IMG/VR virus record: IMGVR_UViG_3300009124_000081
Location: 1-27,450 of that record
DNA length: 27,450 bases
From: a virus
Strand: one strand, 5' to 3'
Shown here: in pieces, positions 3,422 to 27,450 of the stretch
Layout: every line of letters begins with the position of its first letter
How positions within the stretch are numbered: the first letter of the stretch is position 1
Notes under the pieces: generated by a model
What the model was told of the DNA's origin: nothing
Seen by the model: only the letters and a program-made list of their open reading frames with translations
The model's database searches: none
Program-made: the position numbers and the translations under genes

Positions 3422-6400
3422 ATGGCGAAAATCAAGAATTCAATTTCAACTCTGATCGAGACCCAACTTCCAGAGTTTATTACTACTGAGTACGAGCTTT
3501 TTGGTAACTTCCTTACCAAGTATTATGAGAGCTTGGAAATTCAGGGTGCTCCTCTTGATATTGCCAACAATCTAGCAACCTATTCTGACATTGGGTATTA
3601 TGAGTCTAAAGTTCTTGAGCAAAGCAGTGAACTGGTAGGCAACCTATCTGATTCTGCTACTACTATTACAGTCACTGATGCTAGATCATTCCCTAAAGAG
3701 AATGGTTACATTAAAATTGGAAAAGAAATCTGTTTCTACAAGAGTAGAACAGATACCGAGTTCTTAGAAGTCTCTAGAGGTGTTAGTGGTAACACTAAAC
3801 TTGGCGACCTTTATAATACCACAGAATTTGTAACTAGTCAAACATCGACCCACTCTGGTGGAGAACTAGTACAAAACATCAGTAATCTATTCTTGTATGC
3901 TCTAGTCAAGAATTTTGAAGAGCAATACTTGGCATCCTTCCCAGAGAAGTATTTGAAGGAAGCAATTGATAAGAGATCTCTTATCAAAAATATTGGTCAG
4001 TTCTATAGAGCAAAAGGAACCGAGAAGTCAATTCAGTTTCTTTTCAACACTGTAATTGCTGGTGGACAAGAAAATAAACCAGAAGTATATAACCCATCAG
4101 ACTTCACGTACAAGTCCTCCACGTCTGATTGGACCCAAGGATATGCTCTACGTGTAAAAGTTCTTTCAGGCAGCGTAGAAGACCTTATAGGACAGGTTAT
4201 TGTACAGCAAGAGGGTCCTAGGAATGGTTATGCCTCTGCTACTGTTGACAATGTAAGGTTTGACTCAACTGTTGATGGTGAGGATACTTATAATCTATTC
4301 CTTGCTACTGAGACTATTAATGGTATCTTTGAGTTTACTGCAAAAACAGAACTAACGAAAGAAATTCTATCTACAGATAGTCAAGGAGACAGAATCAATG
4401 TTGCGTCCACACTAGGATGGAATGATAAGGGTACGTTATTAATCAATGGCGAGACCTTCACGTTTGAAGACAAAAACATTACCCAGTTTGAGATCAACTC
4501 AAGAACTCAAACAACAATTCATCCTGAAGGGTCTATTGTATATGATCCCATCTATATTGGTAGTGGTAATGTACAACTACTAGTATTTGGTCTTGCATAT
4601 AATTTGCTACCAACTGATGCACAACCTTATTCTTCTGTAAACGATCCTATTGAGGTTTCTAATCCAGGATTTGAGACTACTGATCCTAAGATTGTATCAC
4701 CCCAAGGAGTAAGATGGCTGTTATCAAACACAAATGACAAACCAACATCTCCAACAAATCCCGCATATACTAGTAACCTTGCAAATCTTTCTACTGATGT
4801 ATCTGCTGTATTCTCGGATGAGCAATTCTATTACATTGCTTCTTCTGGATACCCATCATATCCTATTCTGGAAAATGTAACCAGCATTCCTGGTAACCTT
4901 GCTGATCAAAAGATTTTAAAACTTATTCGTAAGCAGGCAACCTCTACTACAGAGATTTACAAGACTCCAAACCTAGATTCTGGTATTTTTGTCAATGGTG
5001 CTAGAGTTTACAGTTATAAAGATACAGAAACTGTAAGATTTGGAAAACTAGAGAGAATTACTGTACAGAACCAAGGATCTAGTTATAAGAACCCACCATA
5101 CGTTCTTGTCAATGGTGTCAGTGGTAGAGCAGTTGCTAAACTTGCTGGACAGTTTGTTGAGTCTGTAGAAGTTCTAGAACCAGGACTATACGGACAAACA
5201 CCAACTGTAGAGATTACTTCTGGTCGTGGTGCTGAAGTTAGAGCGACAATTACGTTTGGTGCAGTAACCGACCTTATTATCGATAACCCAGGTGAGTATT
5301 ATTCAACTCCACCTCTAGTGGTTATTACTGATCTTGCTGGTCAGGGAAGACTTGCAGAATACACTGCTCGTGTTTCTAATGGTGAGATTGTTGGTTTTGA
5401 TCTTGTCAATCAAGGATCTTTCTATTCACAAGACAATGTAAGAGTAACTATTCTTCCTGTAGGACAAAATGCTGTTGCTACCCCAGAACTTACCGAGTGG
5501 GTAAAAGACAGATACTATATTTTACAAAACAAATTAGATGATAACAATGGTTTTGTTTTTGAAAATTATAACAGAGCATTAGAGTATGGATATGCACATG
5601 TTGCTAATCCAAAATCACTACGTGTTAGACTTAACGATAATCTAAGTTCTTTAGGTGTAGAACCTGCAACTAAAGCACACTCACCCATTCTTGGTTTTGC
5701 TTATGATGGCAACCCAATCTATGGTCCGTTTGCACATGAAAATCCATTAGATCAACAGTCTCCTATTGTTAGGATGACTTCTAGTTATATTTTAAAACCA
5801 TCTAGATCTTTTGGACCTAGCACACAAGACTATCCACTTGGTTCGTTCATTCAAGACTATGAGTATCGCCACCAGTCTGGATTGCTAGATCAAAACAACG
5901 GAAGATTCTGTGTAACTCCAGATTTCCCAGAAGGAACATATGCATACTTTATTACTATTAATTCACAGCAAGTTCCTCAGTTCCCATATGTTATTGGGGA
6001 GAATTTCTATTCTTTGCCAGTAGAGTCTAACTATGCTTCAAATCTAAATCAAACAAACCTTTCTAAAAATGTAAAGCGTTTATTTACTCCAGGACTACAA
6101 GTCAATGGTGGCGGAGTCAATGCTATTGTTCAAGATCTTGAATCTGGCAGTATTGAATCTATTGATGTAGAATCCTCTTCCGATTCTTTTAGTGTTGGTT
6201 CTAGTTTGGTATTTGATAATTCTGGAACAGAAGGGAATGGTGTTGAAGCAACTGTTAGTTCTGTAAAAGGCAAGTCTGTAAACTATCTGCAGAGTTTTGA
6301 GAGTAAAGTAGTAAAACTAGTCATTACTAGAGACTCTTACGTATTTGCTGATGATTTCTTAAGACAACCAGCATCTGGTGCATTTGGAACAATTGTTGGT

Positions 6401-9400
6401 ACTGTAAGAGCAGATAACACTATTCTTGTCAAGGATGTAAATGGAACCTTTGATGATAGTGCTACATTCTCTACAGACATCAAAGTTGTTAGATTAACCA
6501 TTGATAAGGTATCTTCTTTTGCACAGGGTTCTACAATTGAACTGACCGATGGCGTTGTAACTGTTGCAGCAGAAGGAGAAGTTCTAGAATCAATTGTTGC
6601 TGGAAATACACTGATTGTAAAGGTTACCTCGGGAACATTTGAAGATCAAGAAAATTTACCAGGATACTTTATCAAGAGTAGTTCTTTATCAGATACTTCT
6701 GGTGCAAAGATTGATGATGTTGAATATTTAAGTGATGGTTTAGTTCCTTTCGATATTGATGATAACATTGCTCTAGTAGAAACATCTTCCGAACACAAGT
6801 TAGGAATTGGTGATGTAGTCAATGTTTCTATCAATCCAGACGATACAACTAAAACAAGAACTTACTTTGTAAGAAAGAGAATTTACCAAGAACTCCAGTT
6901 ACAGACTCCAACATACAATACTGTTGTTAATTACAGTGGTATTGGCAGAGGAATTGTTCTTAACTCTGGCAGTCTATATGATGTTGGTTCATATACCAAC
7001 ATTCCATTAACTGGTGGATTGGGTGAAGGTGCAACAGCAAACATTGTAGTAAGTCCCGATACTCCTAATAGTGCTACTGGTTACATTTCTGATATTCAAA
7101 TTTCAGATGGTGGTACTGGATACAAGAGAGGTGATGTTCTTGGAGTTGCCGATTCTTCTTTGGGCAAAGTTCCTGGAAGTTCTACTCAAACACTTAGATT
7201 TTTTATTGACCACGTTGGCATTTCTACAGAATCAACTAGAATTGATGTTAAGAGTGCAGTTGAGTATGCAGAAAACGATTTACTTAAGATTGACGATGAG
7301 ATTGTAAAAATTGTTTCTCTTACTAACAATCAAGTACAAGGCGGAACTCTAATTGTTGAAAGAGCACAACTGGGAACTAAAGCAGTAGATCACTACGATG
7401 GTGCAACTGTTTCTCTATACGATGGTGGATATAACTTTGATGCTAACTTTACAGTAAATGGTAGCGAGTCGGTTATTTACAACAAAGAGAAGCAGACTTT
7501 ACTAGTAATCTATCCATCAACTCAGTCATTGTCAACACTACAAGCAATTACTGAAACAACTACATTCTTTGACAATAGTACACCACAAAGGTTCGTTACT
7601 ATTATCACAGCATCTAGTGCAGAAAACAGATTTGAGTTTAGACTAGATCCATCTATGTCTATCTTTGGAACTACTGCTCCAAACACTTATACTAGTGACT
7701 GGGTAGTAAATCCTATTATTGAAGTACAAGAGTTTTACAAGTATAGATTTGATACTTCCGATAACTCACTGACTGGTGCAAGTCTAGACTTTAGTCCTAG
7801 TGGAAATTATAACATAATTTCAGTAGAAAAAGCAGAACCTGCCATTCTTCAGGGATCCCCTGGATCTTTTGTTGAAATGAAGTTTGGTTTTGGTGCAGCA
7901 ATTGCGTCAAACCAATATACAGAAGAAGAAGCATCCAGATTTGCAAATTATTTCTACTTCGACAGAAATAATACTATTTCTAATAGTGGTTCTTACTTGA
8001 CTGTAATTCAAGACCCTCTTGCTGGCAGACAAGTTGTCAACTATGTCACACCAACCAGATTCTCATACTCACTGAAGAAAAATCCACAGTGGGATGGATC
8101 AGGTGATATTTCTTACACAACAACAGGATCATTTGCTGTTGGCGAAATTGATTCTGTATCAATTCAAAACATTGGATCAAATTACAAGAAGACTCCTATT
8201 GTTTTAGGTGCATACTTAAACACTGAAAGTCAAGCAAGTGCAACTGTATTGTTTGATCCTTTACTCGATACTATCACTAGTGTTAGGGTAGATGTTGAAG
8301 GATCTAACTATAGCAAACCAAAAGTTGTAATTTTAGAAGGTGATGGAGTAGATGCAGAGTTTGGTGTTACTTCCAGAGATGGAAAAGTATTAGACATTTT
8401 TGTCATTAATAAAGGCACTGACTATACTAAAGCACCCACAATTGCTATTATTGAATCTGATGTAAAATTATTTGCACAGGGAAGTAGGATTGGTCGTCCT
8501 AAAAATGTAAAAATGATAAAAAATGGAAGTTCTTTCCATAGAGATAATACCCTTCTTTCAGAATATACTAGCAGCTACACATTTGCTGTTACTGGGTATG
8601 GAGATTCCAATTTCTTAAAAGGCGAAACCATTACACAGACCAGTGGCAATGATGTTGTTTTAAGAGCAAGAGTAAATGAGTGGAGGCATGGATCTAACTT
8701 ACTGAAACTTTCTAACATTCAAGGAAATGTTAGAAACAATCTTCCTCTAGTTGGTGAGATCTCAAAAACTTCTGCTACTATCAAGTCAGAATACAAAACT
8801 GTTTTTAATCTAGACTTAAAACCTTATTCTAACAACATAGGATCTTATAGATCTGATAGGGGAAAACTTGGTGTTAGTAATCAGAGATTAACCGATTCTT
8901 TCTTCTATCAAGACTATTCATATGTTGTTAAGTCTAGAACAGCAATTGATAACTGGAGAGAGTTAGTAAAAGAAACTACACACCCAGCAGGATTTAAACT
9001 GTTTGGTGAAGTTATCATTGATCCTATTATTGAAGATGGCATCACAATGCCAACTGAGATGCCAAAAGCATCACACTTTAGTATTATTGAATTGTGGGAC
9101 GCTGATAAGAATAAAGTAACAGTAGAGAGCACTACCAGAACTATTACTCAATCAGTTCTTTCGGTTGATGATTACCGTGCTATTAAAGGTAGTGGTTCTA
9201 TTGCTGTTAACGAATTTGATTTTAATTACACTAACGCATTCGAGTTAACTTTAAGACAGAATCCAACTGATCCATCACCTCTCGATGGTACATTCAATGG
9301 AGATGGTCAACTAGTAGGTACACGATCATTTACTCTTTATAATAATGGAGCACCATTTAATCCATATAGTGCAGAAAATCTCATTGTAACGATTGATGGC

Positions 9401-12400
9401 GTTTTACAGGAACCAAAGGTAGCGTATACTATTTCCAGTAATCAAATTGTCTTTGCTACACCTCTACTTGGATATAATGTAGTTGAAGGACAAGATGTCT
9501 ATGAACAAAAAGTTCTAATCCGATACATCGAATTTAAGAATGATGCTTACAATGATAAGCACTTCAGAAAGATCAGAAACTTCTATCAAAGAAATGGTAG
9601 ATGGTTGGATGCAGCAAATCAAATTCTATTGAATGTAGATTTTATTGTTGCTGAGTCTATTGGTTACTTTGAATCTAAGTATGCTAGTGAAATTGCAAAT
9701 GCTACAATTCCATGGACAGCGATTGAAAACGAAGTTCAGGGAGATATTAGAAATCTTTGTGCTGCATTAGAACATGATTTAAGATTTGGTGGAAATATCA
9801 AGAGTGTAGACTATGCAGAACTTTTTGCAAGTTCTTACTCTGCACAAAATACACAAATAAATGATTTGTTCCAGTATGTCGCAAGACTAGCAAAACTTGC
9901 TGCCAGAAACTGGGATTGGGTTGCTATTGGAGCATCATATACTGCAGGAAGTGATATTATCACAATTTCTGATACATCAAATATTGCACTAGGTGCAGTT
10001 GTAAGTTCTGGACAGGCAATTCCACTATCTTCTGGATATAAAGTTATCGAAATTATTTCAGATACTCAAGTAAGAATTGATGGAACAGCACTGGTTGATA
10101 GTGGCACTGCGCCTCCAGGATCTGGCGGACCAGGAACCACTTATTTAAGTGGCACACAGTCAGGTGACGTTACGCTACCAACAGCAACTGGCGCGGTTGT
10201 TCCTCCAGATACATATGGACTACCACCAGGAACAACATTGACTGCACCTCCTGTATTTGCAGGACTTGATCAAGTTACCTTCTCGTTCAGTGGTATCAAT
10301 AATGGCACTTATTATGATGCATCAAACCTAATTGATAAAAATAGAGACTATATCGTTGACTATGCTATCAACTGGGCAAAAGCAACATATCCTGGTCTAC
10401 AATGGTCTCAAAATGAGACTAAGTGTAGAAGAGACACTGGGTATCTCTTAGATGCAGCAATTTACAGTTTAAGATTTGGTGGCAACCTCAAGTTGGTAGA
10501 ATTTGCAGAACTATACTTTGTAGGAAGTCAACTCAATTATATTGTTGGTGAGTTTGTTGAAACAAAAGCAACATATCAAAAAGTTCTAACTGAACTTTGT
10601 GTTGATGCTATGCGTCAGACTTTGCAAGCATCTCAGTATACAAATATCATTCCAGTAATTGATCCAGAAGTAATTGTTGATGCCGTATCTCCCACATGTG
10701 CAGGTGTAGAGTCTGCATTGAATACTTATTATGATATTATTGAAACTATTTTAGATAGTGGTCCTAATGTTGTTCAACCAACACAACAAAATCCAACTAA
10801 GAAAGGACTTTACACAAACTTAGTTCCTTATGCAAACTATAGTATTATACCAGATAATCAATTAGTTTCTAGAGAATGTGAAGATGTTGTTTCTGCACTG
10901 TCAACGTATGCTTCTATTGTAGAAGATTATATGGTAAATGGCAATACAGTAACCAAGTCATTACCAGACTTTATTGATAATGAAACTTCTGAGTTTGAAT
11001 TATATTGGGATGATGATGGATCACCTGTTGCATTGACAGAAGCAGATGAGCACTTGCTAGTTGCATTTAATGGTGTAATTCAACGTCCTAAGTATAATCC
11101 AGATGAACCAGCATTTGATTCATATTGGGTTGATAGAACTGTTACTCCAAACGTAATTAAATTTACTGCTCCTCCTATCTGGGATCAAGATTTGTCTGCA
11201 AAGACAATTCAAGAACCAACAATGGTTGAGAAGTTCTTTGCTACTAACATTGGTAATTACAGAAGATATACTATTGATAAGTCACTTGTCAATGGCGTAA
11301 GAAAAGGTCCTTTCTTGATTCTTAGTGTAGACAAAGACAAGATATTAAACATTGACGATCCAAACTACATGATTGTCATTGTTAATGGCGTAATTCAAAA
11401 ACCAACCACTGCATATGAAGTAGTTGGAACATCTATCACGTTTAAGTATCCAATGCGTGATGAAGATGTTGTTGATATTAGACTATGTTATGGTAGAGAC
11501 TTAGACCCAACAGTAACTTTACATGACTTCGACACTACTGGATATTTGTATGATTACACATTAGAAGTTAATGGCACAAATACTGGTGTTAACTTCAATA
11601 GTTTTGCTTTAACCACTGACTGGGCATTAACAACCAAAGATAAGTTCTACATCTATCAAGAAGATTCTAATGGAACTTATGGCATTGGTTCTGTGTATGA
11701 CTGGAAGCAGTCTGGTGCAAATCAAGTCACAATTAAGATGTATTCTAACAACATCGACTATGATCCAAGCAGAACAACATACATGAAGACAATGGGTGCT
11801 ACTGCGGTAAGCATTTATACTTTTGCTTCTTCCGATACATTTACATTGACCAAAAATTATGATTATTTGTCTAGAACAGATAAGTCATACTTTGCACAAG
11901 ATGTAAAGAGAAGCAATGATCTCCTCCAAAGAAAAGGATTCTTCAGACTTGCACCAGGAGATAAGATTAAGATTGATGGCGAGTCAAAGTATAGAACAAT
12001 CAGATCTATTCCTGATGAAGTTTACACTAGAGACAACCGTGTAGATGGTGATGCTGGTAATGACATCTATGGTTCTTTTGGCATCTCATCTTATAATGGT
12101 AAAACTATGGGTGAAGGTCTCAGCGTTTCTGCTGAGATTACAAATGGAGTAGTCACTGCACTTACATGGAATGAAAGAATTGTAGAACCAATTACAAATT
12201 CTGATGGATCTATAACTTATAAGTTCTATAGACCAACCGCTTTTAATTATGAGACTGCACCAAAATTAATGTTTGTTCCCAAAGATGGGAATGGTGGTGG
12301 TGCAAGAGCACAAATTATTGTTGATCGTGGATATATCCAAGCAATTCAACTGGTCTCTGGTGGATCGGGTTACACTGAAGCACCTAAGGTAGTTGTTACT

Positions 12401-14029
12401 AGAAAGTATGATGTCAAGAAACAAGATGATATCAAGGTATCTCTTGTAAAACTAGGTGTACAAAGTGTCGTCACACAAGGACTAAGAGTTATCTCTAATG
12501 TCAGTGCGATTGGACTTCCACCACCAGGGGAGGCATCACTTTCTATTGCTGTTTTGGATTCAGTACAAGAAGTCCAAGACGAGATTGAACAGGAAATTCA
12601 ACCAGAACCTGTACCTGATGCTATTATGGCGTCAGAACCTCTGCCAGTTAAGAGGAAGCAAATTATTCATCTTGACCCAGTTGATGCTGGACAATCTGAT
12701 ACTGCAGAAAGATTTGTACAAAGTATTCTTGAAGTACGTGCAGAAGATATTGTAAGTATTTCTCAATACACTACTAGTAGACTTGTTACACAAACTATTC
12801 AGCGTGAGATTGCAAACACATTCTTAGATAATGTAATTTACAGAGCACCTGGAGCATATCTACAAGCACCTCTGAATATTGGAGATACTATTGTATACAT
12901 CCCAGACACCTCTAAGTTTACCAGCAATGGTAAATTGATGGTTGGTGATGAAGTTGTCTATTATCCAAGAAAACGTGGCGATAGATTCCTCAGTGTAACT
13001 AGAGGATTTGAAGGGACTACTGAAAAGAACTGGGCACCTGGAACATTTATTAGACAGATTGAAGATTTTGTAAGTGTCGCATTTGGTGGTGTTGCTGAGA
13101 TTCAAAGTGAGACTGTTGTTAGAAACAACATTCCAACTGGTGTTACTGAAAGAAAAACACAACAACAGTTTGAAGCACCTGCTGAATTTACAATTCAGAC
13201 AGAAATTGAACATGTAAGTCAATTACAAGTACCTGTAGATGTAGTTTCCGTTTCTTCTGTATCTCAAGAAATGATTTCCAGCGTTTCTGCTGGTGGTTCT
13301 TCTATCGTATCTGACTTTACTAACTTCAGACCTGCTGCTACTATTGTTACTGCAGAAATTGAAGTTCAAACAAAAGTAACTTCTGAAGTACAAAACACTG
13401 TACGTGAAATTTTATTCTTTGCTCCTCCTGGAGGTGTTATTGATTATTTCCAAGAATCTTTATTCTTCACAAATCCAATTGAAACCAGATTGAATGGATT
13501 TGTCACTTTAGTTGACAGGACAGTAACCACAAGAAGTGGAAGTGTAATCGAAATAAGAAATATCACGGAACGAGAACAAGTTTCGTATGTTGGACAATAT
13601 ACTGTAGGAAATGTAGGTGCTAATATTAGATCATGGAATTACGTTTCTAAAGATGAAGGCACTATTCCTTCTAGTGGTGTTACTATTGGTGAGTTTAATT
13701 TCTTATTCCCAGCGTTTACTCTAAGAAACTTTGAAGAAAGGGGATATTCAAATTATACTTTATCTGGTGACAAATTTAATCTTGGCATTCCAACTTTTAA
13801 CACTGCCGTTACTGTATGCTTTACCTCTGGAAATATCGGATCAACAATTACAGTTCAAAATACCGATTATTTCCCAGAATCTGGATACATATTCCATGGA
13901 GCAGGAGCTACTAGGGGAGTAATCAAATATACTGGAAAACAACCAACCACCTTTACTGGTTGCACGGTTTATTCTGGATCAACTACTATTACGAATGGGT
14001 CTGAAGTTATACCCCATTCAATTGACTAA
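3422..14029 (+). CDS. 7: Giant baseplate wedge protein, gp7 homologue with large insertions
   Basis: This 3535-residue protein sits where T4 has gene 7 and has two blocks resembling the C-terminal half of T4 gp7 (1032 residues). Block one, about residues 154-270, includes FYRAKGTEKSIQFLFN and VEDLIGQVI; T4 gp7 has FYSTKGIEASYKFLF and TEDLVGQTI. Block two, about residues 1827-1867, includes HPAGFKLF (His1854); T4 has HPVGFGF. About 1550 residues separate them. This insert holds Gly-x-x-Tyr beta repeats (about 545-680 and 1577-1690) and a YHYH domain (753-863). After block two come two helical units containing LRFGGN (2120-2125 and 2350-2355) separated by a Pro/Gly-rich linker, then VNGVIQxP beta units (about 2540-2700), a Pro/Glu-rich linker near 3050-3080 and a final beta module. 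No signal peptide or membrane segment is visible. A weak ribosome site and a five-base gap suggest coupling to gene 6. The coding assignment is certain; the gp7 assignment rests on remembered T4 sequence and gene order. Confidence 0.85.
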   Translation: MAKIKNSISTLIETQLPEFITTEYELFGNFLTKYYESLEIQGAPLDIANNLATYSDIGYYESKVLEQSSELVGNLSDSATTITVTDARSFPKENGYIKIGKEICFYKSRTDTEFLEVSRGVSGNTKLGDLYNTTEFVTSQTSTHSGGELVQNISNLFLYALVKNFEEQYLASFPEKYLKEAIDKRSLIKNIGQFYRAKGTEKSIQFLFNTVIAGGQENKPEVYNPSDFTYKSSTSDWTQGYALRVKVLSGSVEDLIGQVIVQQEGPRNGYASATVDNVRFDSTVDGEDTYNLFLATETINGIFEFTAKTELTKEILSTDSQGDRINVASTLGWNDKGTLLINGETFTFEDKNITQFEINSRTQTTIHPEGSIVYDPIYIGSGNVQLLVFGLAYNLLPTDAQPYSSVNDPIEVSNPGFETTDPKIVSPQGVRWLLSNTNDKPTSPTNPAYTSNLANLSTDVSAVFSDEQFYYIASSGYPSYPILENVTSIPGNLADQKILKLIRKQATSTTEIYKTPNLDSGIFVNGARVYSYKDTETVRFGKLERITVQNQGSSYKNPPYVLVNGVSGRAVAKLAGQFVESVEVLEPGLYGQTPTVEITSGRGAEVRATITFGAVTDLIIDNPGEYYSTPPLVVITDLAGQGRLAEYTARVSNGEIVGFDLVNQGSFYSQDNVRVTILPVGQNAVATPELTEWVKDRYYILQNKLDDNNGFVFENYNRALEYGYAHVANPKSLRVRLNDNLSSLGVEPATKAHSPILGFAYDGNPIYGPFAHENPLDQQSPIVRMTSSYILKPSRSFGPSTQDYPLGSFIQDYEYRHQSGLLDQNNGRFCVTPDFPEGTYAYFITINSQQVPQFPYVIGENFYSLPVESNYASNLNQTNLSKNVKRLFTPGLQVNGGGVNAIVQDLESGSIESIDVESSSDSFSVGSSLVFDNSGTEGNGVEATVSSVKGKSVNYLQSFESKVVKLVITRDSYVFADDFLRQPASGAFGTIVGTVRADNTILVKDVNGTFDDSATFSTDIKVVRLTIDKVSSFAQGSTIELTDGVVTVAAEGEVLESIVAGNTLIVKVTSGTFEDQENLPGYFIKSSSLSDTSGAKIDDVEYLSDGLVPFDIDDNIALVETSSEHKLGIGDVVNVSINPDDTTKTRTYFVRKRIYQELQLQTPTYNTVVNYSGIGRGIVLNSGSLYDVGSYTNIPLTGGLGEGATANIVVSPDTPNSATGYISDIQISDGGTGYKRGDVLGVADSSLGKVPGSSTQTLRFFIDHVGISTESTRIDVKSAVEYAENDLLKIDDEIVKIVSLTNNQVQGGTLIVERAQLGTKAVDHYDGATVSLYDGGYNFDANFTVNGSESVIYNKEKQTLLVIYPSTQSLSTLQAITETTTFFDNSTPQRFVTIITASSAENRFEFRLDPSMSIFGTTAPNTYTSDWVVNPIIEVQEFYKYRFDTSDNSLTGASLDFSPSGNYNIISVEKAEPAILQGSPGSFVEMKFGFGAAIASNQYTEEEASRFANYFYFDRNNTISNSGSYLTVIQDPLAGRQVVNYVTPTRFSYSLKKNPQWDGSGDISYTTTGSFAVGEIDSVSIQNIGSNYKKTPIVLGAYLNTESQASATVLFDPLLDTITSVRVDVEGSNYSKPKVVILEGDGVDAEFGVTSRDGKVLDIFVINKGTDYTKAPTIAIIESDVKLFAQGSRIGRPKNVKMIKNGSSFHRDNTLLSEYTSSYTFAVTGYGDSNFLKGETITQTSGNDVVLRARVNEWRHGSNLLKLSNIQGNVRNNLPLVGEISKTSATIKSEYKTVFNLDLKPYSNNIGSYRSDRGKLGVSNQRLTDSFFYQDYSYVVKSRTAIDNWRELVKETTHPAGFKLFGEVIIDPIIEDGITMPTEMPKASHFSIIELWDADKNKVTVESTTRTITQSVLSVDDYRAIKGSGSIAVNEFDFNYTNAFELTLRQNPTDPSPLDGTFNGDGQLVGTRSFTLYNNGAPFNPYSAENLIVTIDGVLQEPKVAYTISSNQIVFATPLLGYNVVEGQDVYEQKVLIRYIEFKNDAYNDKHFRKIRNFYQRNGRWLDAANQILLNVDFIVAESIGYFESKYASEIANATIPWTAIENEVQGDIRNLCAALEHDLRFGGNIKSVDYAELFASSYSAQNTQINDLFQYVARLAKLAARNWDWVAIGASYTAGSDIITISDTSNIALGAVVSSGQAIPLSSGYKVIEIISDTQVRIDGTALVDSGTAPPGSGGPGTTYLSGTQSGDVTLPTATGAVVPPDTYGLPPGTTLTAPPVFAGLDQVTFSFSGINNGTYYDASNLIDKNRDYIVDYAINWAKATYPGLQWSQNETKCRRDTGYLLDAAIYSLRFGGNLKLVEFAELYFVGSQLNYIVGEFVETKATYQKVLTELCVDAMRQTLQASQYTNIIPVIDPEVIVDAVSPTCAGVESALNTYYDIIETILDSGPNVVQPTQQNPTKKGLYTNLVPYANYSIIPDNQLVSRECEDVVSALSTYASIVEDYMVNGNTVTKSLPDFIDNETSEFELYWDDDGSPVALTEADEHLLVAFNGVIQRPKYNPDEPAFDSYWVDRTVTPNVIKFTAPPIWDQDLSAKTIQEPTMVEKFFATNIGNYRRYTIDKSLVNGVRKGPFLILSVDKDKILNIDDPNYMIVIVNGVIQKPTTAYEVVGTSITFKYPMRDEDVVDIRLCYGRDLDPTVTLHDFDTTGYLYDYTLEVNGTNTGVNFNSFALTTDWALTTKDKFYIYQEDSNGTYGIGSVYDWKQSGANQVTIKMYSNNIDYDPSRTTYMKTMGATAVSIYTFASSDTFTLTKNYDYLSRTDKSYFAQDVKRSNDLLQRKGFFRLAPGDKIKIDGESKYRTIRSIPDEVYTRDNRVDGDAGNDIYGSFGISSYNGKTMGEGLSVSAEITNGVVTALTWNERIVEPITNSDGSITYKFYRPTAFNYETAPKLMFVPKDGNGGGARAQIIVDRGYIQAIQLVSGGSGYTEAPKVVVTRKYDVKKQDDIKVSLVKLGVQSVVTQGLRVISNVSAIGLPPPGEASLSIAVLDSVQEVQDEIEQEIQPEPVPDAIMASEPLPVKRKQIIHLDPVDAGQSDTAERFVQSILEVRAEDIVSISQYTTSRLVTQTIQREIANTFLDNVIYRAPGAYLQAPLNIGDTIVYIPDTSKFTSNGKLMVGDEVVYYPRKRGDRFLSVTRGFEGTTEKNWAPGTFIRQIEDFVSVAFGGVAEIQSETVVRNNIPTGVTERKTQQQFEAPAEFTIQTEIEHVSQLQVPVDVVSVSSVSQEMISSVSAGGSSIVSDFTNFRPAATIVTAEIEVQTKVTSEVQNTVREILFFAPPGGVIDYFQESLFFTNPIETRLNGFVTLVDRTVTTRSGSVIEIRNITEREQVSYVGQYTVGNVGANIRSWNYVSKDEGTIPSSGVTIGEFNFLFPAFTLRNFEERGYSNYTLSGDKFNLGIPTFNTAVTVCFTSGNIGSTITVQNTDYFPESGYIFHGAGATRGVIKYTGKQPTTFTGCTVYSGSTTITNGSEVIPHSID
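5678..6010 (+). other. YHYH domain inside the gp7-like protein
   Basis: Residues about 753-863 of the gp7-like protein match the YHYH family (PF14240) pattern: HSPILGFAYDGNPIYGPF, then YEYRHQSGLLDQNNGRFCVTP, then FPEGTYAYFIT and FPYVIG. The order and spacing of these blocks match the family as I know it from secreted bacterial and eukaryotic proteins of unknown function. It is a domain within the gene 7 frame, not a separate gene. Confidence 0.8.
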
Positions 14030-14087: not shown

Positions 14088-15899
14088 ATGGCTGCTATCA
14101 TCTCTGATAAATTTAGAATTTTTAATGCGAAGCAATTCCTTGAATCGCTTAGTGAAGGCGCAAACGATGCTAGCGCCGACCGTACCAGACTCTACTTTTT
14201 TGTAGGTCGCCCCCAAGCATGGAGAGCATACTTAGAAGTATACTCAGTAGACGGTGGATCATTCACTGTAGGAAACGAAGTCTACGTCGGAACTAACTAC
14301 GGAACTGCAACTTTCCGTGGAACTGTCGAAAAGGTTTACAGCAATTCAATTCTCCTAAGTGCAATCTTCGGTAGCACTGGCACCGCATCTACTCCTGGTG
14401 CAGGATCTACACTTAAAGAGTGGGATGGTTCTGCTGACACCGCTGTTACTGCTGTAACAGGTGTTTATCGTTATGCAACTGAAGATGCACCCCCACTTCC
14501 TCTAGACAACCAAACAGAGAAGTTTAGTGTTTATGACGACATTATCGCTGCAAAAAGAGTAACCGACGCTAATGCCCGCGCAGTAATCCGTCGTTATAAC
14601 TGGGATCTTTCCAGCAATCCTAAGTTTGATGCGTGGAAACCCGATTACTCCTCATCACCATCTGGTGGCGGACAAATCGGTAAGCAAACTGCTTTAGGTT
14701 ATGACAGCATTGCTGATGCTAAGTTCTATGTAATGAACACCAATTATGAAGTATTCAAGTGCCTCTATAATGGCGAGAATCCTTCTAACCCAACTGGTCA
14801 AAACGCAACTGTAGAACCTTCTACTGCTGCTGCTGGTTACAATGGTACTACTGGAATCTTCACTGAAGGATCTGGTGCTGGTTATGTGTGGAAGTACATG
14901 TACACTCTACCAACTGATGATGTACTGAAGTTTCTTTCTTCTGACTTCATGCCAGTTGTACTACCTACCGAGTCAACTAGAGTTGCTGTTGAAGCACTAG
15001 CAGTTAATGGTTCTATTGACGTTGCACTAATTGAAGACGCTGGTGGCAACCTACCTCCTTCACAGACTCTATATGCTGCTATCCAAGGAGATGGAACCAA
15101 CGGTGTTGTACAAATCTCAACAACTGCAGGTGGAGCAATCAGCACTGCAACTGTAGTTGGTCGTGGTCAAGACTACACCTACGCTAACGTTCTCCTAAGT
15201 AACGGTTATCTTTACAGTGATCAGGGACTAACCACTGGAGTTGCAACTCCTGCTGGTGCAACTGGTGCTATTGAAGTTGTACTACCTCCCAAGGGTGGTC
15301 ACGGATCTGCTGCAGATATCGAACTAAATGCTAAGCGTGTTATGACGAATATTCGTCTAACCTACGCAGAGGGTTCTGGTGACTTCCCTGTAGATAACGA
15401 CTTCCGCCGTATTGGTCTCCTAACAGATCCTTATGATTGGGGTACTACTTCTTATGCAACTGCTTCCACTTTGAACGGTATGTATGCAGTTAAGATTACT
15501 GGATCTACTGCAGATTACATCCCCGACGAAGTAATCACACAAGTCCGTGGTGATGGCAACACTGCAAAAGGCACCGTAGTTTCTTGGACTCTTGATAGTG
15601 GTTCGACAACTGATGGTATCCTTAAGTATTATCAATCACCTGATCAACACCTCCACAATGGTGCAGTTTATCCATTTGAAGCAAATGGTGCTGTAGATGT
15701 TGGTGGTGCTGCATCTGCTGCTGATGGTAATGTTGATACCACTTATAACGGAACTCTAGAGGGCGTCACTCTTGCTAACGGTCTAGGAACTCCTGAGATT
15801 GCTAACAACTCTGGTGATATCATCTACATTGAGAACAGAAGACTAATCACTCGTGCTCCTGACCAGATTGAAGACATCAAACTTGTCATCGAATTCTGA
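14088..15899 (+). CDS. 8: Baseplate wedge subunit gp8 (enlarged)
   Basis: The 603-residue product carries a T4 gp8-like core (T4 gp8 is 334 residues) cut by insertions. Core segments are: residues 6-45 (SDKFRIFNAKQFLESL to FFVGRPQAW; T4 TSKFRTEKMLNFYNSI and FGRSEPW), about 134-170 (APPLPLDN to RRYNWD), GYVWKYMYTLP near 265-275 (T4 GYVWEYLFEIP), DFRRIGLLTDP near 438-448 (T4 GFRQISIITNP), and the C-terminal SGDIIYIENRR with PDQIEDIKL (T4 SGEMIYMENRP, DQTEEINIL). gp8 is a dimer that joins the outer part of each wedge to gp7 and gp10. Inserts at about 48-130, 295-400 and 455-565 are beta-rich. A ribosome site and late promoter precede it and a strong terminator follows. Hand-counted GC of one sampled line is 45%, higher than sampled gene 7. 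Confidence 0.88.
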   Translation: MAAIISDKFRIFNAKQFLESLSEGANDASADRTRLYFFVGRPQAWRAYLEVYSVDGGSFTVGNEVYVGTNYGTATFRGTVEKVYSNSILLSAIFGSTGTASTPGAGSTLKEWDGSADTAVTAVTGVYRYATEDAPPLPLDNQTEKFSVYDDIIAAKRVTDANARAVIRRYNWDLSSNPKFDAWKPDYSSSPSGGGQIGKQTALGYDSIADAKFYVMNTNYEVFKCLYNGENPSNPTGQNATVEPSTAAAGYNGTTGIFTEGSGAGYVWKYMYTLPTDDVLKFLSSDFMPVVLPTESTRVAVEALAVNGSIDVALIEDAGGNLPPSQTLYAAIQGDGTNGVVQISTTAGGAISTATVVGRGQDYTYANVLLSNGYLYSDQGLTTGVATPAGATGAIEVVLPPKGGHGSAADIELNAKRVMTNIRLTYAEGSGDFPVDNDFRRIGLLTDPYDWGTTSYATASTLNGMYAVKITGSTADYIPDEVITQVRGDGNTAKGTVVSWTLDSGSTTDGILKYYQSPDQHLHNGAVYPFEANGAVDVGGAASAADGNVDTTYNGTLEGVTLANGLGTPEIANNSGDIIYIENRRLITRAPDQIEDIKLVIEF

Positions 15900-21900: not shown

Positions 21901-24246
21901 ACCATCGCCAAAGATGCTGGTAGAGTAACAGACTTGGAAGTTACTGCAACTGGTCAAAACTACGATTCTGCTTTCTTGACATTTGAAAGTCCACAACTTC
22001 CTGGTGGCAGTCAGGCAAGTGGTGCTGTAAACATCTCGGGGGGAAGAATCTATAACTCTTCTGTATCTCTAGGTGGATCTGGTTACACAGCACCCCCTGC
22101 AATCGTCGTGAAGGGCGTTGGAACTGGCAATGGAGGTGCAGTCATCACCGCCAAACTTACGATTGATACACCCGCTGTTAGAATGGGTGTAGCGGTTGAC
22201 ACAGAGGGTACAACCAACTCAACAATTCCAACTAAATTCAAGTTTAAGAATCCTGTATATCTACAAAATGGTACTAAGTATGCATTGGTTGTAGAAACGG
22301 ATTCAACAGAATATCTACTTTGGGCATCTAGATTAGGTGAGACTGAGATTGTTACCAGTTCTCCTGTGACAACTCAACCTCTACTTGGTTCTGTTTATAA
22401 GGCACAGAACACGGACAACTGGACAGAAGATCTATTTGAAGATCTCAAGTTCAGACTAAATCGTGCAGAGTTTGACACATCGAGAACAGCAAGTTTAAGA
22501 ATTAGTAATGAGAATCCTGGTTTTGAGTATCTCGGCATGAATCCATTTGAGACTAGTGGAGTTTCAGATCAGAACGCAACATCACCACTATTCAAACTTA
22601 ACAATAAGATTGTTAAAGTATATCATAAGAACAATGGAATGGAAGACAGTGGAAAGTCATATGTATTCTTCAAGGGTGCAGATGGAGTAGGTGGTGTTTC
22701 CAGCACACAGTTGAACACTGGTCTATTCAAGGTTTCTAACGTTGGTGTTGATAGTTACAACATTCAAAACGACACAACTGCTTCCAGCAGTGTTAAAGGT
22801 GGCGGTGGTGCTGTTCTAGCAGTTTACAATAGAAAGTTTGAAAGACTATTCCCACAAGTCAACTATCTCTCATTCAGTGATACTAGCATTGTTTCTACTG
22901 TAAAAACTACCAATGTAATTCCTGTAGATTCTAACACTCAGAACTATGTGTCTTACTCTCAGACCACTTATGAAAAGACTTTCTTGAATGAGATTCAGTA
23001 TTTTACAAATCAGAAAGTTATTGCTTCTAGAATCAATCAAGTTCTAAACAATGTAGATCGTTCACTTGAGTATAAGATTGATTTTAGATCCGATGTTTCA
23101 TATCTATCACCAGCAATTGACTTGTCATCTGCTGCTGTAATTACTTCTACAAATAGAATTGAGAAAGCTTCTGGTAAAGAAGACAGATATGGAAGAAGAG
23201 ATGCTCGTTTAATCTTGAAGGATGTTTATTCATTCACTCTTGGTAACTTGAATGGACAGGATATTCTATCCAATCAAGAAGTTAGTATTGAAGCAACTGG
23301 TTCTGCAAATGCTGGATCTGCTGGATCTCAGGCAAAAGGAACTATCGCAAGAGTTGTTGAAGTTGGTGGAGACACAATTGTATATGTAAGAATTTCCACG
23401 GTCAACCCATTCTCCAAAAATGATCAACTATCAATTTCTGGAATCACTGGAACACCAGTTGTAAACTCAGATCCTGTTAAGGTTGAGTTTGGTGGAACGG
23501 GTGGACCAGCAATTCCTAACGTTGGTGCTACTGTAACTGCTAGAAATGTTGGATTTACTGATATCTTTACTGCTAAGATTGAAGGTAAAGTATCGTTCTT
23601 TGATATTAAGAATCAAGAGATTACTGTTAAGAATGATAAGAAACCTTTTGGTTCTACTACATTTGATCAGACACTTTCTGAAGCGTCTATCGTAGAACCA
23701 AGCGTTGCAAGAAGTGGAGAAGGTGTCGAAGATATCTTCCGTGTTGGTGATATTCTATCATACACTAGTCAGGAAGATGATGAATCTGCATACTGGGAAG
23801 TCCAAGAAATCGTCTACACGGATGGTATCGACTACTCACCAGAAATTAGATTCTCCAATAGTTCTTCAGTTGCTAAGTATGTAACCAAAGAAATTTCTAT
23901 TGGTAACCCTGGTACTTCAATCAATGTTAAGTTGACAGCAAATGTCAAAGATATTTCTGATATCCAAGTTCTGTTTAGATACAAGGAATCTTCTAGTCAA
24001 GAATCCTTTGATGTTATTGAATATCAATACTTTAATGGAACTGGTCTACCAGACTTTGATATTGTTGCTACTGCTGAGAATACAATTTCAAGTATTACAG
24101 AGAAGCAAAGTTCTTATCAAGAACTAGAGTATAGTGTATCAGATCTACCAGAGTTCTCATCCTTTGGTATCAAGATTGTTATGAAGTCAGATAATCCTGC
24201 ATTTGTTCCTAAGATTCAAGACATGCGTGCAGTCGCTTCTTACTGA
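15997..24246 (+). CDS. Very large DUF4815-like baseplate/tail-fibre structural protein
   Basis: The 2749-residue product starts like DUF4815 phage proteins: LNVSPYFEDFDDNKNFYKIL followed by FRPGYSIQGRELTQLQS (to about residue 43), then IYFINGYFV and GKAYIRGYEI within the first 400 residues. The middle (about 1258-1485) has LKNVFDFRPKVDSA and an amphipathic helix LEKRIERLEYYTTLS (1401-1415) that looks like a coiled-coil joint. About 1810-1850 contains NPLAQTFSIEAFEGG, and about 2082-2160 contains PVYLQNGTKYALVVE; both look like conserved structural blocks. A GC-rich Gly-Tyr repeat insert lies at 1975-2057. DUF4815 proteins are tail-associated, often baseplate-attached; position after gene 8 corresponds to T4 genes 9-10, but I see no clear T4 similarity. 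It heads a new late transcription unit. Exact function unknown. Confidence 0.82.
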   Translation: MPQKTNLNVSPYFEDFDDNKNFYKILFRPGYSIQGRELTQLQSVLQNQIESFGKNSFKQGELIVPGEVGLNNKLDYVKLSSVSEVAVNEGGTIVYRKYDISQLVGQQLRGLTSGVVANLVAVQTSTETSADTLFVTYVTSGNAGNESTFRQGETLEVIDGVNTPLLVVGTDGSVLPTTVTVVNPDTQDVTVVESPAMGYASAVKVEEGIYFINGYFVRNDAELFIIDPYYNAPSAKIGFKVEESIVTPEEDSSLYDNAIGSSNFSAPGAHRLRIQLNLEKYGLSETTDKNFIKILTVKSGVIQKQIKPADYTILEDTLARRTYDESGDYVVDRFDVSVREYYQSEDNNGLYAQGEDGLVNGLSLQDASQKMVANIGSGKAYIRGYEIVNKETKYLEVNKARETVDAENITLKTTGLPTYPITNVYGSIPFNAEGSELTAYPDVELYKTFNDGTAGQNIEFASGQTSVANPNRTGIGTRSSIDRRGQLYGDSLAIVTVYVDITKGDDTPSLINKINVTGDLAFEDCCDANGKLYLAFTYTGGAPSTYKSVDLIGFAIKERPDILVAKRFAELTLMGDKAVLKGLVRTYDVDDSNGSRRQLYLEPLAGTDDQGNVVDASTKILGNVWDHTAVTTPLIGVAKPGNFTLKESGFGFNPDSDTAISKGKLSGGQVAYNGIFGLGYFAPSFYTKITLDSDIETGTFEKGKYIFGITSGAYGVIEGSSGSTFSTGNELMITALSGKFISGEVIRDEDENSAKIATDNTISRFVVKYRGSGGYNVTTGGTKGTAGITINGVPYDTSKVNVFGDIDGFVHGIDILSKGSFTQTYSQPPVVTVDLPTSGSITTSVKIDAILVRNSVQTYTPNDVKSFGCSYGSGGNNVFTADLETSKSPYAKLISITDFTFTGSKGSKFLECNGFNGDTTIFLKQGDYIQFTDADSVAEKVMVSYATKPEGTLKSRIYLDTALAADVVNGSVVKVESNIENSSKGSLLYPTGGSQVASISQSNEDSKISYFYRKDFITEAASSGGNITFTAQLPFGTQRFAKFSPENFVMTVLNPGSATKVAKGDVIYLTEDNIVSENTTDLSSGLNAGSVKVNLPQEFFGATQEPFPTLKLSATLELDKARPRIKTVVRNRRILIKSAGDRTVPLRGENFDTEATNVSTYSDVFKLKYVYEGTSSSPPTIDSAGNLVSGVDVTERFTFDDGQRDTFYDVSRIVLKPGFEAPVGQLVVAFDYFEHSQGDFCTVDSYLHEAGVTLEEIPTFNSSVYGIVSLKNVFDFRPKVDSASFVTGFQDQSSREAIIRNFIGEGGVASVVPAPDKNLEYTFKFTQTEFLNRIDGVFLTKKGSFVLKEGNSSQNPTKPELIDDAIPLYYLYIPAFTTSSKDVRILPVDNRRYTMKDIGKLEKRIERLEYYTTLSILEQQALNMQIRDSIGFDRFKTGFVVDNFETHGVGEISSADYRCAVDTQQSVLRAPNKEDSLRLLEVNTTTDQRFVNGYVKTGDLVTLPYSELEVLGNDFATKTLNPNPFVALQYVGEGQLSPQIDSWYDDTIEPIIVDNNTGLYSIFIAKDDTTETFSSIFNSFIINWVGSKGTFGSITSFGTTNSDSSIEKVSQASVSSSSNVSPDNNEIGKGLATDSDQKGSVATSLKFYARPTPVKFAVKRLKPFTTVYPFLEGNDISRWTCPDSRFTGIAGNSSIGFNAPITTDENGNASGIIIIPAGKPPVENATWTGDVNTVSYDTTQPDLRITTGIKTIRFTSSATNEAKDTVDTYADLKYYAIGKLPQNPPSINATSPAYFKANEGIQKIDSVTDVEIKPNPLAQTFSIEAFEGGLFVTSAELYFNKKSTNIPVRVYLTNTEVDKPAKHIIPGAEATLSPNTLIRAYANGTTTLTVGENIVGSQSACSGPLLKVLDSTNIEVTASADGKVIVSNDQVYTLVLSNHNGKEYIQNEGLIIDSITEYNNKNNTNLGLTIAKDAGRVTDLEVTATGQNYDSAFLTFESPQLPGGSQASGAVNISGGRIYNSSVSLGGSGYTAPPAIVVKGVGTGNGGAVITAKLTIDTPAVRMGVAVDTEGTTNSTIPTKFKFKNPVYLQNGTKYALVVETDSTEYLLWASRLGETEIVTSSPVTTQPLLGSVYKAQNTDNWTEDLFEDLKFRLNRAEFDTSRTASLRISNENPGFEYLGMNPFETSGVSDQNATSPLFKLNNKIVKVYHKNNGMEDSGKSYVFFKGADGVGGVSSTQLNTGLFKVSNVGVDSYNIQNDTTASSSVKGGGGAVLAVYNRKFERLFPQVNYLSFSDTSIVSTVKTTNVIPVDSNTQNYVSYSQTTYEKTFLNEIQYFTNQKVIASRINQVLNNVDRSLEYKIDFRSDVSYLSPAIDLSSAAVITSTNRIEKASGKEDRYGRRDARLILKDVYSFTLGNLNGQDILSNQEVSIEATGSANAGSAGSQAKGTIARVVEVGGDTIVYVRISTVNPFSKNDQLSISGITGTPVVNSDPVKVEFGGTGGPAIPNVGATVTARNVGFTDIFTAKIEGKVSFFDIKNQEITVKNDKKPFGSTTFDQTLSEASIVEPSVARSGEGVEDIFRVGDILSYTSQEDDESAYWEVQEIVYTDGIDYSPEIRFSNSSSVAKYVTKEISIGNPGTSINVKLTANVKDISDIQVLFRYKESSSQESFDVIEYQYFNGTGLPDFDIVATAENTISSITEKQSSYQELEYSVSDLPEFSSFGIKIVMKSDNPAFVPKIQDMRAVASY

Positions 24247-24464
24247 TGGATTATATTAAAGTAAAGGATCACGATTCACTTGTTCGTGATCCTAAAACTG
24301 GTGCTATTGTTAATGCAAATCGTGGGGAATTTCTCAAACACGTTGAGGCGAGACGTAAGATGTCTCGTATCGAGACTGTAGTTGATGACATAAATAACTT
24401 GAAGGATGAAGTATCTGAAATCAAAGCCTTACTGCGAGAGTTAATCAAAAATGCCAGCAATTAA
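24246..24464 (+). CDS. Small coiled-coil protein of unknown function (72 residues)
   Basis: The start overlaps the previous stop (TGATG at 24244-24248) and the stop overlaps the next gene by 14 bases, so the gene is tightly coupled on both sides. The product begins MDYIKVKDHDSLVRDPKTG, and residues about 36-68 form a heptad-like amphipathic helix (VVDDINNLKDEVSEIKALL) suggesting a coiled coil. No membrane segment or signal peptide is present. I think short proteins with the LVRDxxTGAI motif are common in T4-like marine phages beside fibre genes, but their role is unknown to me; a small structural connector or assembly factor is a guess from location. The 5' part of the mRNA carries a strong hairpin (24265-24293). 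A minus-strand frame covering the same bases is a shadow. Confidence 0.82.
   Translation: MDYIKVKDHDSLVRDPKTGAIVNANRGEFLKHVEARRKMSRIETVVDDINNLKDEVSEIKALLRELIKNASN
24265..24293 (+). other. 10-bp perfect inverted repeat near the start of the 72-residue gene
   Basis: AGGATCACGA (24265-24274) pairs perfectly with TCGTGATCCT (24284-24293) around the nine-base loop TTCACTTGT. On the plus strand it is followed by AAAACTGG, not by a T-run, so it is not an ordinary terminator. It lies inside codons 7-16. Confidence 0.75.
24389..24396 (+). promoter_or_regulatory. Candidate internal late promoter CATAAATA
   Basis: CATAAATA matches NATAAATA exactly and lies 54 bases before the ATG of the fibre-like gene, inside the coiled-coil gene. 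It may give extra transcripts of the fibre gene. In an AT-rich genome an eight-base match can occur by chance, so support is only moderate. Confidence 0.4.
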
Positions 24465-27450
24465 TGTCGCTAGAACCGATACCTTTGAACAACAAAGGGT
24501 AAAAATTAACGAAATCGGTAATCAAGTATTTTCAGTCACTCAAGGTGGCAGTGACCTTGCTACTGGTAATTTAAAGTTGGGTGATGGGATCAGAACTGCA
24601 CCATCTTTAGCATTTACTTCTGATAATAGTCTTGGAATCTATAAAGCAGATTCTTCTACTATTGGATATGTAGCATCTGGAAAAAAACTTGCAGATTTTG
24701 GATCTACAGCAAATATTTTTTATAAAGATTTTTTAATTCAAAGAAAAACTTTAATTTCTTCTGGACTGTCAATCTTAGATAATGGTTTAAATTATGATAC
24801 TGGATCATATTCTGATATCTCTCTTACTGGTGGTTCAGGAGATGGAGCTACTGTAAGTATAGATGTAACTGCTTACACAGGATCTGTAACAAATGCTGGT
24901 GTTAATTATAATCCAGGGTCTTATTCAAATGTTTTGTTAACTGGAGGAAGTGGAACTGGTTCTACTGTAGATTTTTCTATCGACACAATCGAAGGAAATA
25001 TTACAAATGAAGGTTCTGGATATATCGCAAATGTATACCAAAACGTTTCATTAACAGGTGGTTCTGGATCTGGAGCTACAGCAAATCTTACTGTTATTGG
25101 AGATCCAACATATGTTGGATCTATTACTAATAGCGGATCTGGATATACACAAGGAACATATACTAACATTCCAGTCTACAATGTTCCTAAACAAACATTT
25201 ACAGTAACTGTTGTTTCTAATGGTTCCCCTCCTCCAGACAACATTTATCAAATTAATGCAGTTAGTCACCAGACTTTAACTTTAGAAAAAGGGAACACAT
25301 ATAGATTTGATACATCCGATGCGTCGATATCTGGCCACCCATTTTCTTTTAAATCTTCTGGTGGAGGAATATTATCAGAACAATATTATAGAATACTAAC
25401 AGTTGGAATTACTGGAACTTCTGGTTCGTATACAGATTTAATTATTTCACCAGATGCTCCAACAGAAGTAATTGAGTATTATTGCTTGATTCATTCTGAA
25501 ATGGGTTCAACTGCTTCAATTGTTTCTGGAACCGAAGGAAATTACGGAACTAGTGCATCAGCTGATGCTGAAGTAGATTCAAATGGAAATATTGTTAGTT
25601 TTTCGTTTTCTACTCCTGGCAATGGTTATAAAATTAATGACACTGTAGAAATTGCATCTTTTAATGTTGGTGGGACTGGATCTGGATTTGAATTTACGAT
25701 CACATCAATTACTTATAATGGTGTTGTAACAAATATAACAATTTTAGATGAAGGACAAAATTATCTAGTTGATGATGTTTTGTCTGCAAATACATCTGAT
25801 TTGGGTGGGGTAGGTTCTGGATTCCAATTAACAATTACATCAAATCCAGGGAAAGTATCAAACTTAAACTTTACAGAAAAAGGAACTGGATATGCATTAA
25901 ATGATATTTTAGAACTTTCAACAGGTGCTTCCAATGTTTCCGCTACATTAAGAGGATTAGTAACAGGTCTGACATCAACTCTTGATTCTGCTTCTACTAC
26001 AGTTACAGTTTCTAGCACAACTGGAATTGTTCAGGGAATGGAAGTTAGTAATGTTGGTGGAGGCGATGTTGGCGCTATTGCTCTTGGCACCACAGTTGCC
26101 TCTGTAGATAGTTCCACAACTTTAACTCTCTCCCAAAATCCAACTACATCAGGATCTGCTGAGTTATTATTCAGGTCTTCTGGTAATTTAGTTGATATTT
26201 CCGTAACTTCAACAGATGAAATAGCATTTGGTTATCAAGTAGAAAAAGTTTCTGGATCTGGAATCCTTGCTTCTGGAACTACAGTATCAGCAGTAGATTC
26301 CGATACTAATACGGTTACTCTTTCATCTTTACCAGATCTGGCAGGAGATGTGGTATTGAATTTTATTCCAACTTTCGGAATTGGAACTACACCGTTCCAA
26401 TATACAATAGGTAATGTTGGAGAAATTGAATCATTTTCAATTTCTTCTGGTGGTAATGGATATTCTTTACTGGATCAATTATCAGTAAATCCATTTGATC
26501 TGACACAATCAATTGTATACAATGTATCCAATAAAAATTTACAATTAATTACTTTATCTTCGCCAATTCCAGATGGAACATTATCTGTTGGCGATACAAT
26601 CAAACAAATAGATGGTGGTATTGTTGGATTTTCTACCACGTCCACACCACAAGTATCACCCACTGTAATCAGTGTTAGTACAACTGTAGATCTCAACGAT
26701 GCGTCTACAACAGTTACACTTTCCAGCACAACGGGAATTGTTCAGGGAATGATTGTTGCAGCAGATGCTGGTAGTGTTGGTGATATTAACCCAGGAACCA
26801 CTGTCGCCTCTGTGGACAGTTCTACAGTAATTACTTTATCGGAAGCACCAAGATCAAATGGTTCTGCTAATCTAAGTTTTACAAGCGACGAATCTGAATC
26901 CTTTACTGGTGTATCAAGTACATCTAATGGATCTGGATCACTAGCAACTTTTGATGTTGTAAGATCTGTAAGCGGTGCAATTAGCAGCGTTACAATAAAT
27001 GAATCTGGAAAAAATTATTCAGATGGCGAAACTGTAACAATTTCTGGATCTGATATTGGCGGAACTTCCCCAACTCATGATATTACTTTATCAGTCTCTT
27101 CTACATTTGAAGCTCCATCGCTAGAAATTTATGAAATTAATAGTTCTAGTGGATCTATCCAGTCAATTTTAATTGACTTTGGAAATTTCGCAGATGGGGA
27201 TTATTTTACTCCATTTGGAGCAACAACTCCAGAAAGAGAAATATCAACAGCTGGTGACTTAGAGTATAGATTTTTTATTGATACTGGGAGTGGATCTCAA
27301 ATTTCTCCAGATTTAACTTTATATGTTGGATCTACATATACATTTGACTATTCTGATTCTAGTAATAATGGACATTCTTTTCAACTATCTAAATTTAGAG
27401 ATGGTATTTGGAGTCCAAGTTATATTCAAAATGTATCAACTACTTTAGAT
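24451..27450 (+). CDS. Large tail-fibre-like structural protein, N-terminal 1000 residues
   Basis: From the ATG at 24451 (GAGAG at 24436-24440 as ribosome site) the frame is open for exactly 1000 codons to the window edge; no stop was met. The N-terminus MPAINVARTDTFEQQRVKIN with GSDLATGNLKLGDG (about 34-47) looks like the attachment end of cyanophage fibre-type proteins. Then come: four Gly/Ser-rich beta units with LTGGSGxGAT (108-243), a cupredoxin-like domain (about 248-360), Gly-Tyr units (about 390-500), three copies of a GIVQGM-type beta module (511-574, 580-638, 748-810) and the beginning of a second cupredoxin-like domain near 955-1000. Expected location is the virion tail, in contact with the cell surface. 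The composition is more AT-rich than upstream genes in several hand-counted lines (22% GC in 24721-24780). Function as a receptor-contact fibre is inference. Confidence 0.85.
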   Translation, partial: MPAINVARTDTFEQQRVKINEIGNQVFSVTQGGSDLATGNLKLGDGIRTAPSLAFTSDNSLGIYKADSSTIGYVASGKKLADFGSTANIFYKDFLIQRKTLISSGLSILDNGLNYDTGSYSDISLTGGSGDGATVSIDVTAYTGSVTNAGVNYNPGSYSNVLLTGGSGTGSTVDFSIDTIEGNITNEGSGYIANVYQNVSLTGGSGSGATANLTVIGDPTYVGSITNSGSGYTQGTYTNIPVYNVPKQTFTVTVVSNGSPPPDNIYQINAVSHQTLTLEKGNTYRFDTSDASISGHPFSFKSSGGGILSEQYYRILTVGITGTSGSYTDLIISPDAPTEVIEYYCLIHSEMGSTASIVSGTEGNYGTSASADAEVDSNGNIVSFSFSTPGNGYKINDTVEIASFNVGGTGSGFEFTITSITYNGVVTNITILDEGQNYLVDDVLSANTSDLGGVGSGFQLTITSNPGKVSNLNFTEKGTGYALNDILELSTGASNVSATLRGLVTGLTSTLDSASTTVTVSSTTGIVQGMEVSNVGGGDVGAIALGTTVASVDSSTTLTLSQNPTTSGSAELLFRSSGNLVDISVTSTDEIAFGYQVEKVSGSGILASGTTVSAVDSDTNTVTLSSLPDLAGDVVLNFIPTFGIGTTPFQYTIGNVGEIESFSISSGGNGYSLLDQLSVNPFDLTQSIVYNVSNKNLQLITLSSPIPDGTLSVGDTIKQIDGGIVGFSTTSTPQVSPTVISVSTTVDLNDASTTVTLSSTTGIVQGMIVAADAGSVGDINPGTTVASVDSSTVITLSEAPRSNGSANLSFTSDESESFTGVSSTSNGSGSLATFDVVRSVSGAISSVTINESGKNYSDGETVTISGSDIGGTSPTHDITLSVSSTFEAPSLEIYEINSSSGSIQSILIDFGNFADGDYFTPFGATTPEREISTAGDLEYRFFIDTGSGSQISPDLTLYVGSTYTFDYSDSSNNGHSFQLSKFRDGIWSPSYIQNVSTTLD
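24772..25179 (+). repeat. Four in-frame beta repeats in the fibre-like gene
   Basis: Units begin at 24772, 24886, 25000 and 25123, with spacings of 114, 114 and 123 bases (38, 38 and 41 codons). Each has the pattern [IV]-x-N-x-G-x-x-Y followed by a Tyr-x-[ND] turn, and the first three also have LTGGSGxG[AS]T. The fourth is shortened and runs into the cupredoxin-like domain. Confidence 0.85.
25192..25530 (+). other. Cupredoxin-like (type-1 copper) domain in the fibre-like protein
   Basis: Codons about 248-360 encode a plastocyanin/amicyanin-like pattern: a beta strand, LTLEKGNTYRFDTSD, the ligand His in SGHPFSF (His296) and the C-terminal ligand loop YYCLIHSEMGS (Cys345, His348, Met351). The C-x2-H-x2-M spacing is that of amicyanin. 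All four expected type-1 copper ligands are present. Actual copper binding is not shown by sequence alone. Confidence 0.72.
25981..26880 (+). repeat. Three copies of a GIVQGM-type beta module in the fibre-like gene
   Basis: Copy A (25981-26172, 64 codons) and copy C (26692-26880, 63 codons) share ASTTVT followed by SSTTGIVQGM and later GTTVASVDSS; their DNA is nearly identical across the GGAATTGTTCAGGGAATG stretch. Copy B (26188-26364) is diverged but keeps GTTVSAVDS. Between B and C lies a separate unit with a Gly-Tyr motif. Confidence 0.85.
27310..27450 (+). other. Start of a second cupredoxin-like domain (cut by window end)
   Basis: LTLYVGSTYTFDYSDS followed by NNGHSFQLSKF parallels the first copy (LTLEKGNTYRFDTSD and SGHPFSF). 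The possible ligand is His975; the Cys-His-Met loop would lie beyond the window. Confidence 0.5.

Follow-up and report, generated by a model that had tools for sequence, protein, structure and literature searches.

Amicyanin and plastocyanin (PF00127) are small exported electron carriers, while stellacyanin is a known case in which glutamine takes the place of the axial methionine. Cyanophages also carry a cupredoxin, the plastocyanin PetE, an auxiliary metabolic gene found in 401 records, which is a free-standing gene with a C-x2-H-x4-M loop. In the open-access literature, as covered by titles and abstracts, no cupredoxin domain is described in phage virion proteins. To our knowledge, no metal centre with a thiolate ligand has been established in a phage virion. 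Bound iron is known from phage tail proteins (HxH tail fibres, T4 gp37, Alteromonas phage R22Y), and the nearest published idea is that of iron held in tail-fibre HxH motifs as a Trojan horse (PMC11705849).

The window, i.e., the whole stretch of DNA analysed here, is IMG/VR virus record IMGVR_UViG_3300009124_000081, positions 1 to 27,450 (all 27,450 bases). Judging by its gene content, it carries genes from the baseplate region of a marine cyanophage of the T4-like kind, with baseplate wedge proteins at 1231-1623, 1623-3416, and 14088-15899, and giant structural proteins, such as the ORF at 3422-14029. After the baseplate genes comes an ORF on the + strand, hereafter P0001 (24451..27450), which begins with an ATG at 24451 and is still open at the window end, leaving 1000 codons visible. 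Its best PHROG match is phrog_6005, 'virion structural protein' (E 4e-225), with weaker matches to tail-fibre PHROGs, and its orthologues in named cyanophages, where synteny is kept, are labelled either 'virion structural protein' or hypothetical. The start of P0001 is overlapped by a small conserved virion ORF (phrog_473, 24246..24464, + strand), a conserved neighbour in orthologous loci that precedes the P0001 orthologue, where annotated, in ACG-2014h (S-MbCM7), Syn1, S-PM2, S-CAM4, S-H9-1, S-H9-2, and S-RIM32. The preliminary description had called P0001 a phage tail-fibre protein; a virion structural protein among baseplate genes it is, and a fibre identity is plausible.

The feature of interest is a cupredoxin-like domain, D1, covering codons 248-360 of P0001 (25192..25530, + strand) and supported by an AlphaFold2 model, Foldseek, and a 50-sequence alignment. 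Four residues occupy the positions of a type-1 copper ligand set, all on the + strand: His296 (25336..25338), the N-terminal ligand position; Cys345 (25483..25485), the thiolate position; His348 (25492..25494), the C-terminal histidine position, placed by sequence and orthologue comparison; and Met351 (25501..25503), the axial position. Reading the sequence gives H-x48-C-x2-H-x2-M, which confirms both the residue positions and the amicyanin-type loop that the preliminary description had reported. Over its 1000 visible residues, P0001 has one cysteine (Cys345 itself), four methionines, and five histidines, at positions 273, 296, 348, 876, and 975.

The proposal that this region adopts a cupredoxin-like fold is supported by structure prediction. 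From the alignment of 50 sequences, AlphaFold2, which models no metal ions, returns a confident beta-sandwich for D1 (mean pLDDT 95.6, pTM 0.88), in which the histidine lies just ahead of strand 51-55, the cysteine closes strand 92-98, and the His/Met loop precedes strand 106-111. In a type-1 site, a histidine precedes strand 4 and the final two strands flank C-x2-H-x2-M, as they do here, and the modelled strand order and ligand placement are those of a cupredoxin. When the model is compared with the PDB using Foldseek, the top matches are Hyphomicrobium copper nitrite reductase and rusticyanin, followed by multicopper oxidases and plastocyanin, with Ig-like domains lower in the list; for cupredoxins, the probability reaches 1.00, the best E is 2.6e-4, and TM is about 0.5-0.6. 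Both predictions place D1 among the Greek-key beta-sandwiches of the cupredoxin superfamily, matching solved type-1 copper proteins rather than another fold. By sequence profile alone, D1 falls short of the cupredoxin families. No Pfam or NCBIfam family, PF00127 included, matches D1 above threshold; the hit of one distant relative (L013) to PF00127, at E 0.042, misses the cut-off. For D1, no cupredoxin emerged when solved structures were searched by sequence, and a related domain of P-SSM2 aligns weakly with a copper nitrite reductase (E 0.11). Using hhalign against real amicyanin and plastocyanin, the ligand loop alone aligns, weakly, with probabilities of 33% and 51%, respectively. Among predicted viral structures (BFVD), D1 matches many cyanophage tail proteins. 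The same database also contains fold matches to 'beta-sandwich' proteins from pithovirus- and marseillevirus-like genomes (A0A481Z7Q7, A0A481Z6J5, A0A481YY19).

Compared with the described systems, D1 resembles amicyanin and plastocyanin in predicted fold and ligand order, and has the same C-x2-H-x2-M loop as amicyanin (L207), but it is a module within a virion structural protein, and P0001 has neither a PF00127 match nor mau or photosynthesis genes around it. The best Foldseek matches, rusticyanin and the Hyphomicrobium nitrite reductase cupredoxin domain, share 14-18% identity with D1, which shows neither a second copper centre nor an enzyme context. An origin of D1 by capture of cyanophage PetE is not supported, as profile similarity between the two is weak. 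The iron-binding tail fibres likewise carry metal ions on phage tail proteins, but through two histidines per chain, in a site and a fold different from those of D1, and there is no HxH motif among the five histidines of the 1000 residues of P0001. Finally, the domain is common to PHROG families 6005, 30742, 677, 32294, and 693, which are named by their virion role (virion structural, tail fibre, baseplate connector), with no cupredoxin or metal annotation.

Conservation of the ligands was assessed on a ligand-blind set, made of orthologues recruited by their N-terminal 200 residues (80 of the 513 N-terminal IMG/VR relatives were taken in), plus named phages. Histidine, cysteine, and histidine with an axial methionine or glutamine are found in 55 of its 57 D1 domains (44 with Met, 11 with Gln), and all four ligands are gone from the remaining two (L152, L154); ten further orthologues lack D1 altogether. 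Across the 87 D1 domains compared, His296 is conserved in 85, and the axial residue is Met in 74 and Gln in 11. Wherever D1 keeps the H-C-H residues, glutamine is the sole replacement of the axial methionine. The four positions, therefore, do not vary freely among homologues, being either kept or lost jointly.

A second copy of the domain, D2, begins at 27253 and is cut by the window end (27253..27450, + strand); it is detected by an HMM match and a tblastn-type match at 27310-27432, and its histidine, codon 975 (27373-27375, + strand), is visible before the cut. In orthologues, an insert about 65 residues long, of the same type as the STTGIVQGM-type repeat module, splits D2. A Foldseek search using the split D2 model gives no convincing cupredoxin match and is uninformative, so the D2 fold rests on homology to D1. 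D2 ligands were scored in 92 non-identical orthologues: 57 have a complete site (His plus C..H loop), 27 have neither element, 8 have the histidine only, and none has the loop only. Each of the 12 proteins lacking a D1 site has an intact D2 site; hence, at least one complete site, in D1 or D2, is retained in 92/92 scored proteins. Many of these rows are related, as seen in a tree of the N-terminus, along which each trait changes about nine times. Independent pairs for D2 co-loss comprise four concordant, zero discordant, and two uninformative cases (p 0.125, underpowered), and the tree-corrected evidence is suggestive but not significant. The D2 loops of several orthologues (L048, L053, L161, and others) read C-x4 to x6-H-x2-E/M, often with Glu, and suggest a differently shaped site beside the classical D1 site of the same protein.

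Further tail and baseplate proteins of marine phages contain the domain as well. A consensus-like family member matches at 683 places in 345 of 50,697 phage records, whose names are those of Synechococcus, Prochlorococcus, cyanophage, Pelagibacter, and Methylophilales phages, with a few uncultured or unassigned ones. Complete sites occur in tail proteins of the short-genome pelagiphages Baldr and HTVC028P, in those of Mosig, Melnitz, Bellamy, S-TIM5, and P-SSM2, and in a gp9-like connector of S-B64; the other site-bearing tail proteins come from both podo- and myophages. The large baseplate protein gp7 of P-HM1 has a ligand-bearing copy with a C-x2-H-x3-M loop. Within the window, a ligand-less relative is detected by homology at codons about 1416-1500 of the giant structural ORF 3422-14029 (7679..7876, + strand). 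Such ligand-less copies persist, and the fold, therefore, does not need a metal. Two scans of GTDB genomes with a strict NTYRFD[TM]S / GNTYRFDT motif found no cellular relative, the patterns being so strict that distant cellular cupredoxins would be missed; the single locus returned is a chance match inside an unrelated gene. The host-derived adhesin fold considered in the preliminary description is neither favoured nor opposed by these scans.

Taken together, these data favour the reading that D1 has the fold of a cupredoxin and carries a metal site that is functional, to which we give a probability of about 75%. Mononuclear, type-1-like metal binding by His296, Cys345, His348, and the axial Met351 is itself likely, judging by the sequences and the model. 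A metal site, most simply of copper, is favoured because residues far apart in the chain are retained or lost jointly, because the fold is that of a cupredoxin, and because methionine gives way to glutamine alone where D1 is intact; if a metal is bound, copper is the somewhat better candidate. The D1 site would take up one metal ion, probably copper, and the bound metal would pin the C-x2-H-x2-M loop to the histidine strand; the pinned loop could then stiffen or shape a domain that helps to stabilise the virion or to attach it to the host. This role for the site is tentative. It is preferred since ligand-less copies persist, the proteins belong to the virion structure, and nothing points to an electron-transfer partner. 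With neither a redox partner nor a second redox centre in evidence, electron transfer ranks below stability or adhesion.

The same H-C-H-M/Q set on a cupredoxin fold could also hold a metal other than copper, such as zinc, iron, or cobalt, in a purely structural capacity. The D1 and D2 conservation data apply equally to this case, Glu is a frequent axial residue in D2 loops (C-x4 to x6-H-x2-E), and iron-bound phage tail proteins have been described (PMC11705849). Nevertheless, the axial residue of D1 is Met or Gln only, favouring copper over zinc or iron, and its loop is of the amicyanin type; a non-copper site is rated unlikely. A rather more doubtful extension holds that type-1-like copper centres sit in the tails and baseplates of phages infecting the bacteria that are most abundant in the ocean and that the copper is functionally used, in a redox-triggered or copper-displaying adhesin, by analogy with the iron Trojan-horse idea. 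While conservation of the site in many tail proteins of marine picoplankton phages, and its retention at least once in each scored protein, are in keeping with such a use, neither a redox partner nor a receptor nor expression speaks for it. The redox or envelope-sensing role raised in the preliminary description is likewise speculative. More improbable still is a cupredoxin- or Ig-like adhesin fold whose Cys, His, and Met are kept for non-metal reasons, such as packing or a shared recent ancestor: the persistence of ligand-less copies, the Ig-like Foldseek matches, and the relatedness of many scored rows would fit, but far-apart residues are lost jointly, including in two independent-looking D1 losses (L152, L154), and no protein has the D2 loop without its histidine. 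A meaningless H...C-x2-H-x2-M pattern, for which only the repetitive composition of P0001 speaks, is ruled out for practical purposes, as H-x(38-70)-C-x2-H-x2-M arises in 0/20,000 shuffles of P0001 and the motif is conserved across many phages.

If the metal site in D1 is real, it would add a metalloprotein class to the tails of Synechococcus, Prochlorococcus, Pelagibacter, and Methylophilales phages, would tie the ocean's trace copper chemistry to virion stability or adsorption, and would allow re-annotation of a domain that recurs in numerous structural proteins currently labelled hypothetical. Should the copper also be functionally used, part of the protein-bound copper in seawater would reside in virions, a pool so far unrecognised.

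Other features of the window are worth recording. The ORF at 366-1049 belongs to a PHROGs family named 'ferredoxin' (phrog_3704, E 5e-119), a name that appears doubtful here, since its translation shows no iron-sulphur motif of the CxxxxCxxC type. Codons 728-850 of the giant structural ORF 3422-14029 encode a YHYH domain (PF14240, E 8.6e-28), a further conserved module rich in histidine and a possible metal binder. Within P0001, tandem-like degenerate LTGGSG-x-GAT repeats, spaced by about 114 nt, lie just upstream of D1 (24826-25099), and a 52-nt direct repeat, 90% identical between 25989-26040 and 26700-26751, corresponds to the STTGIVQGM-type module.
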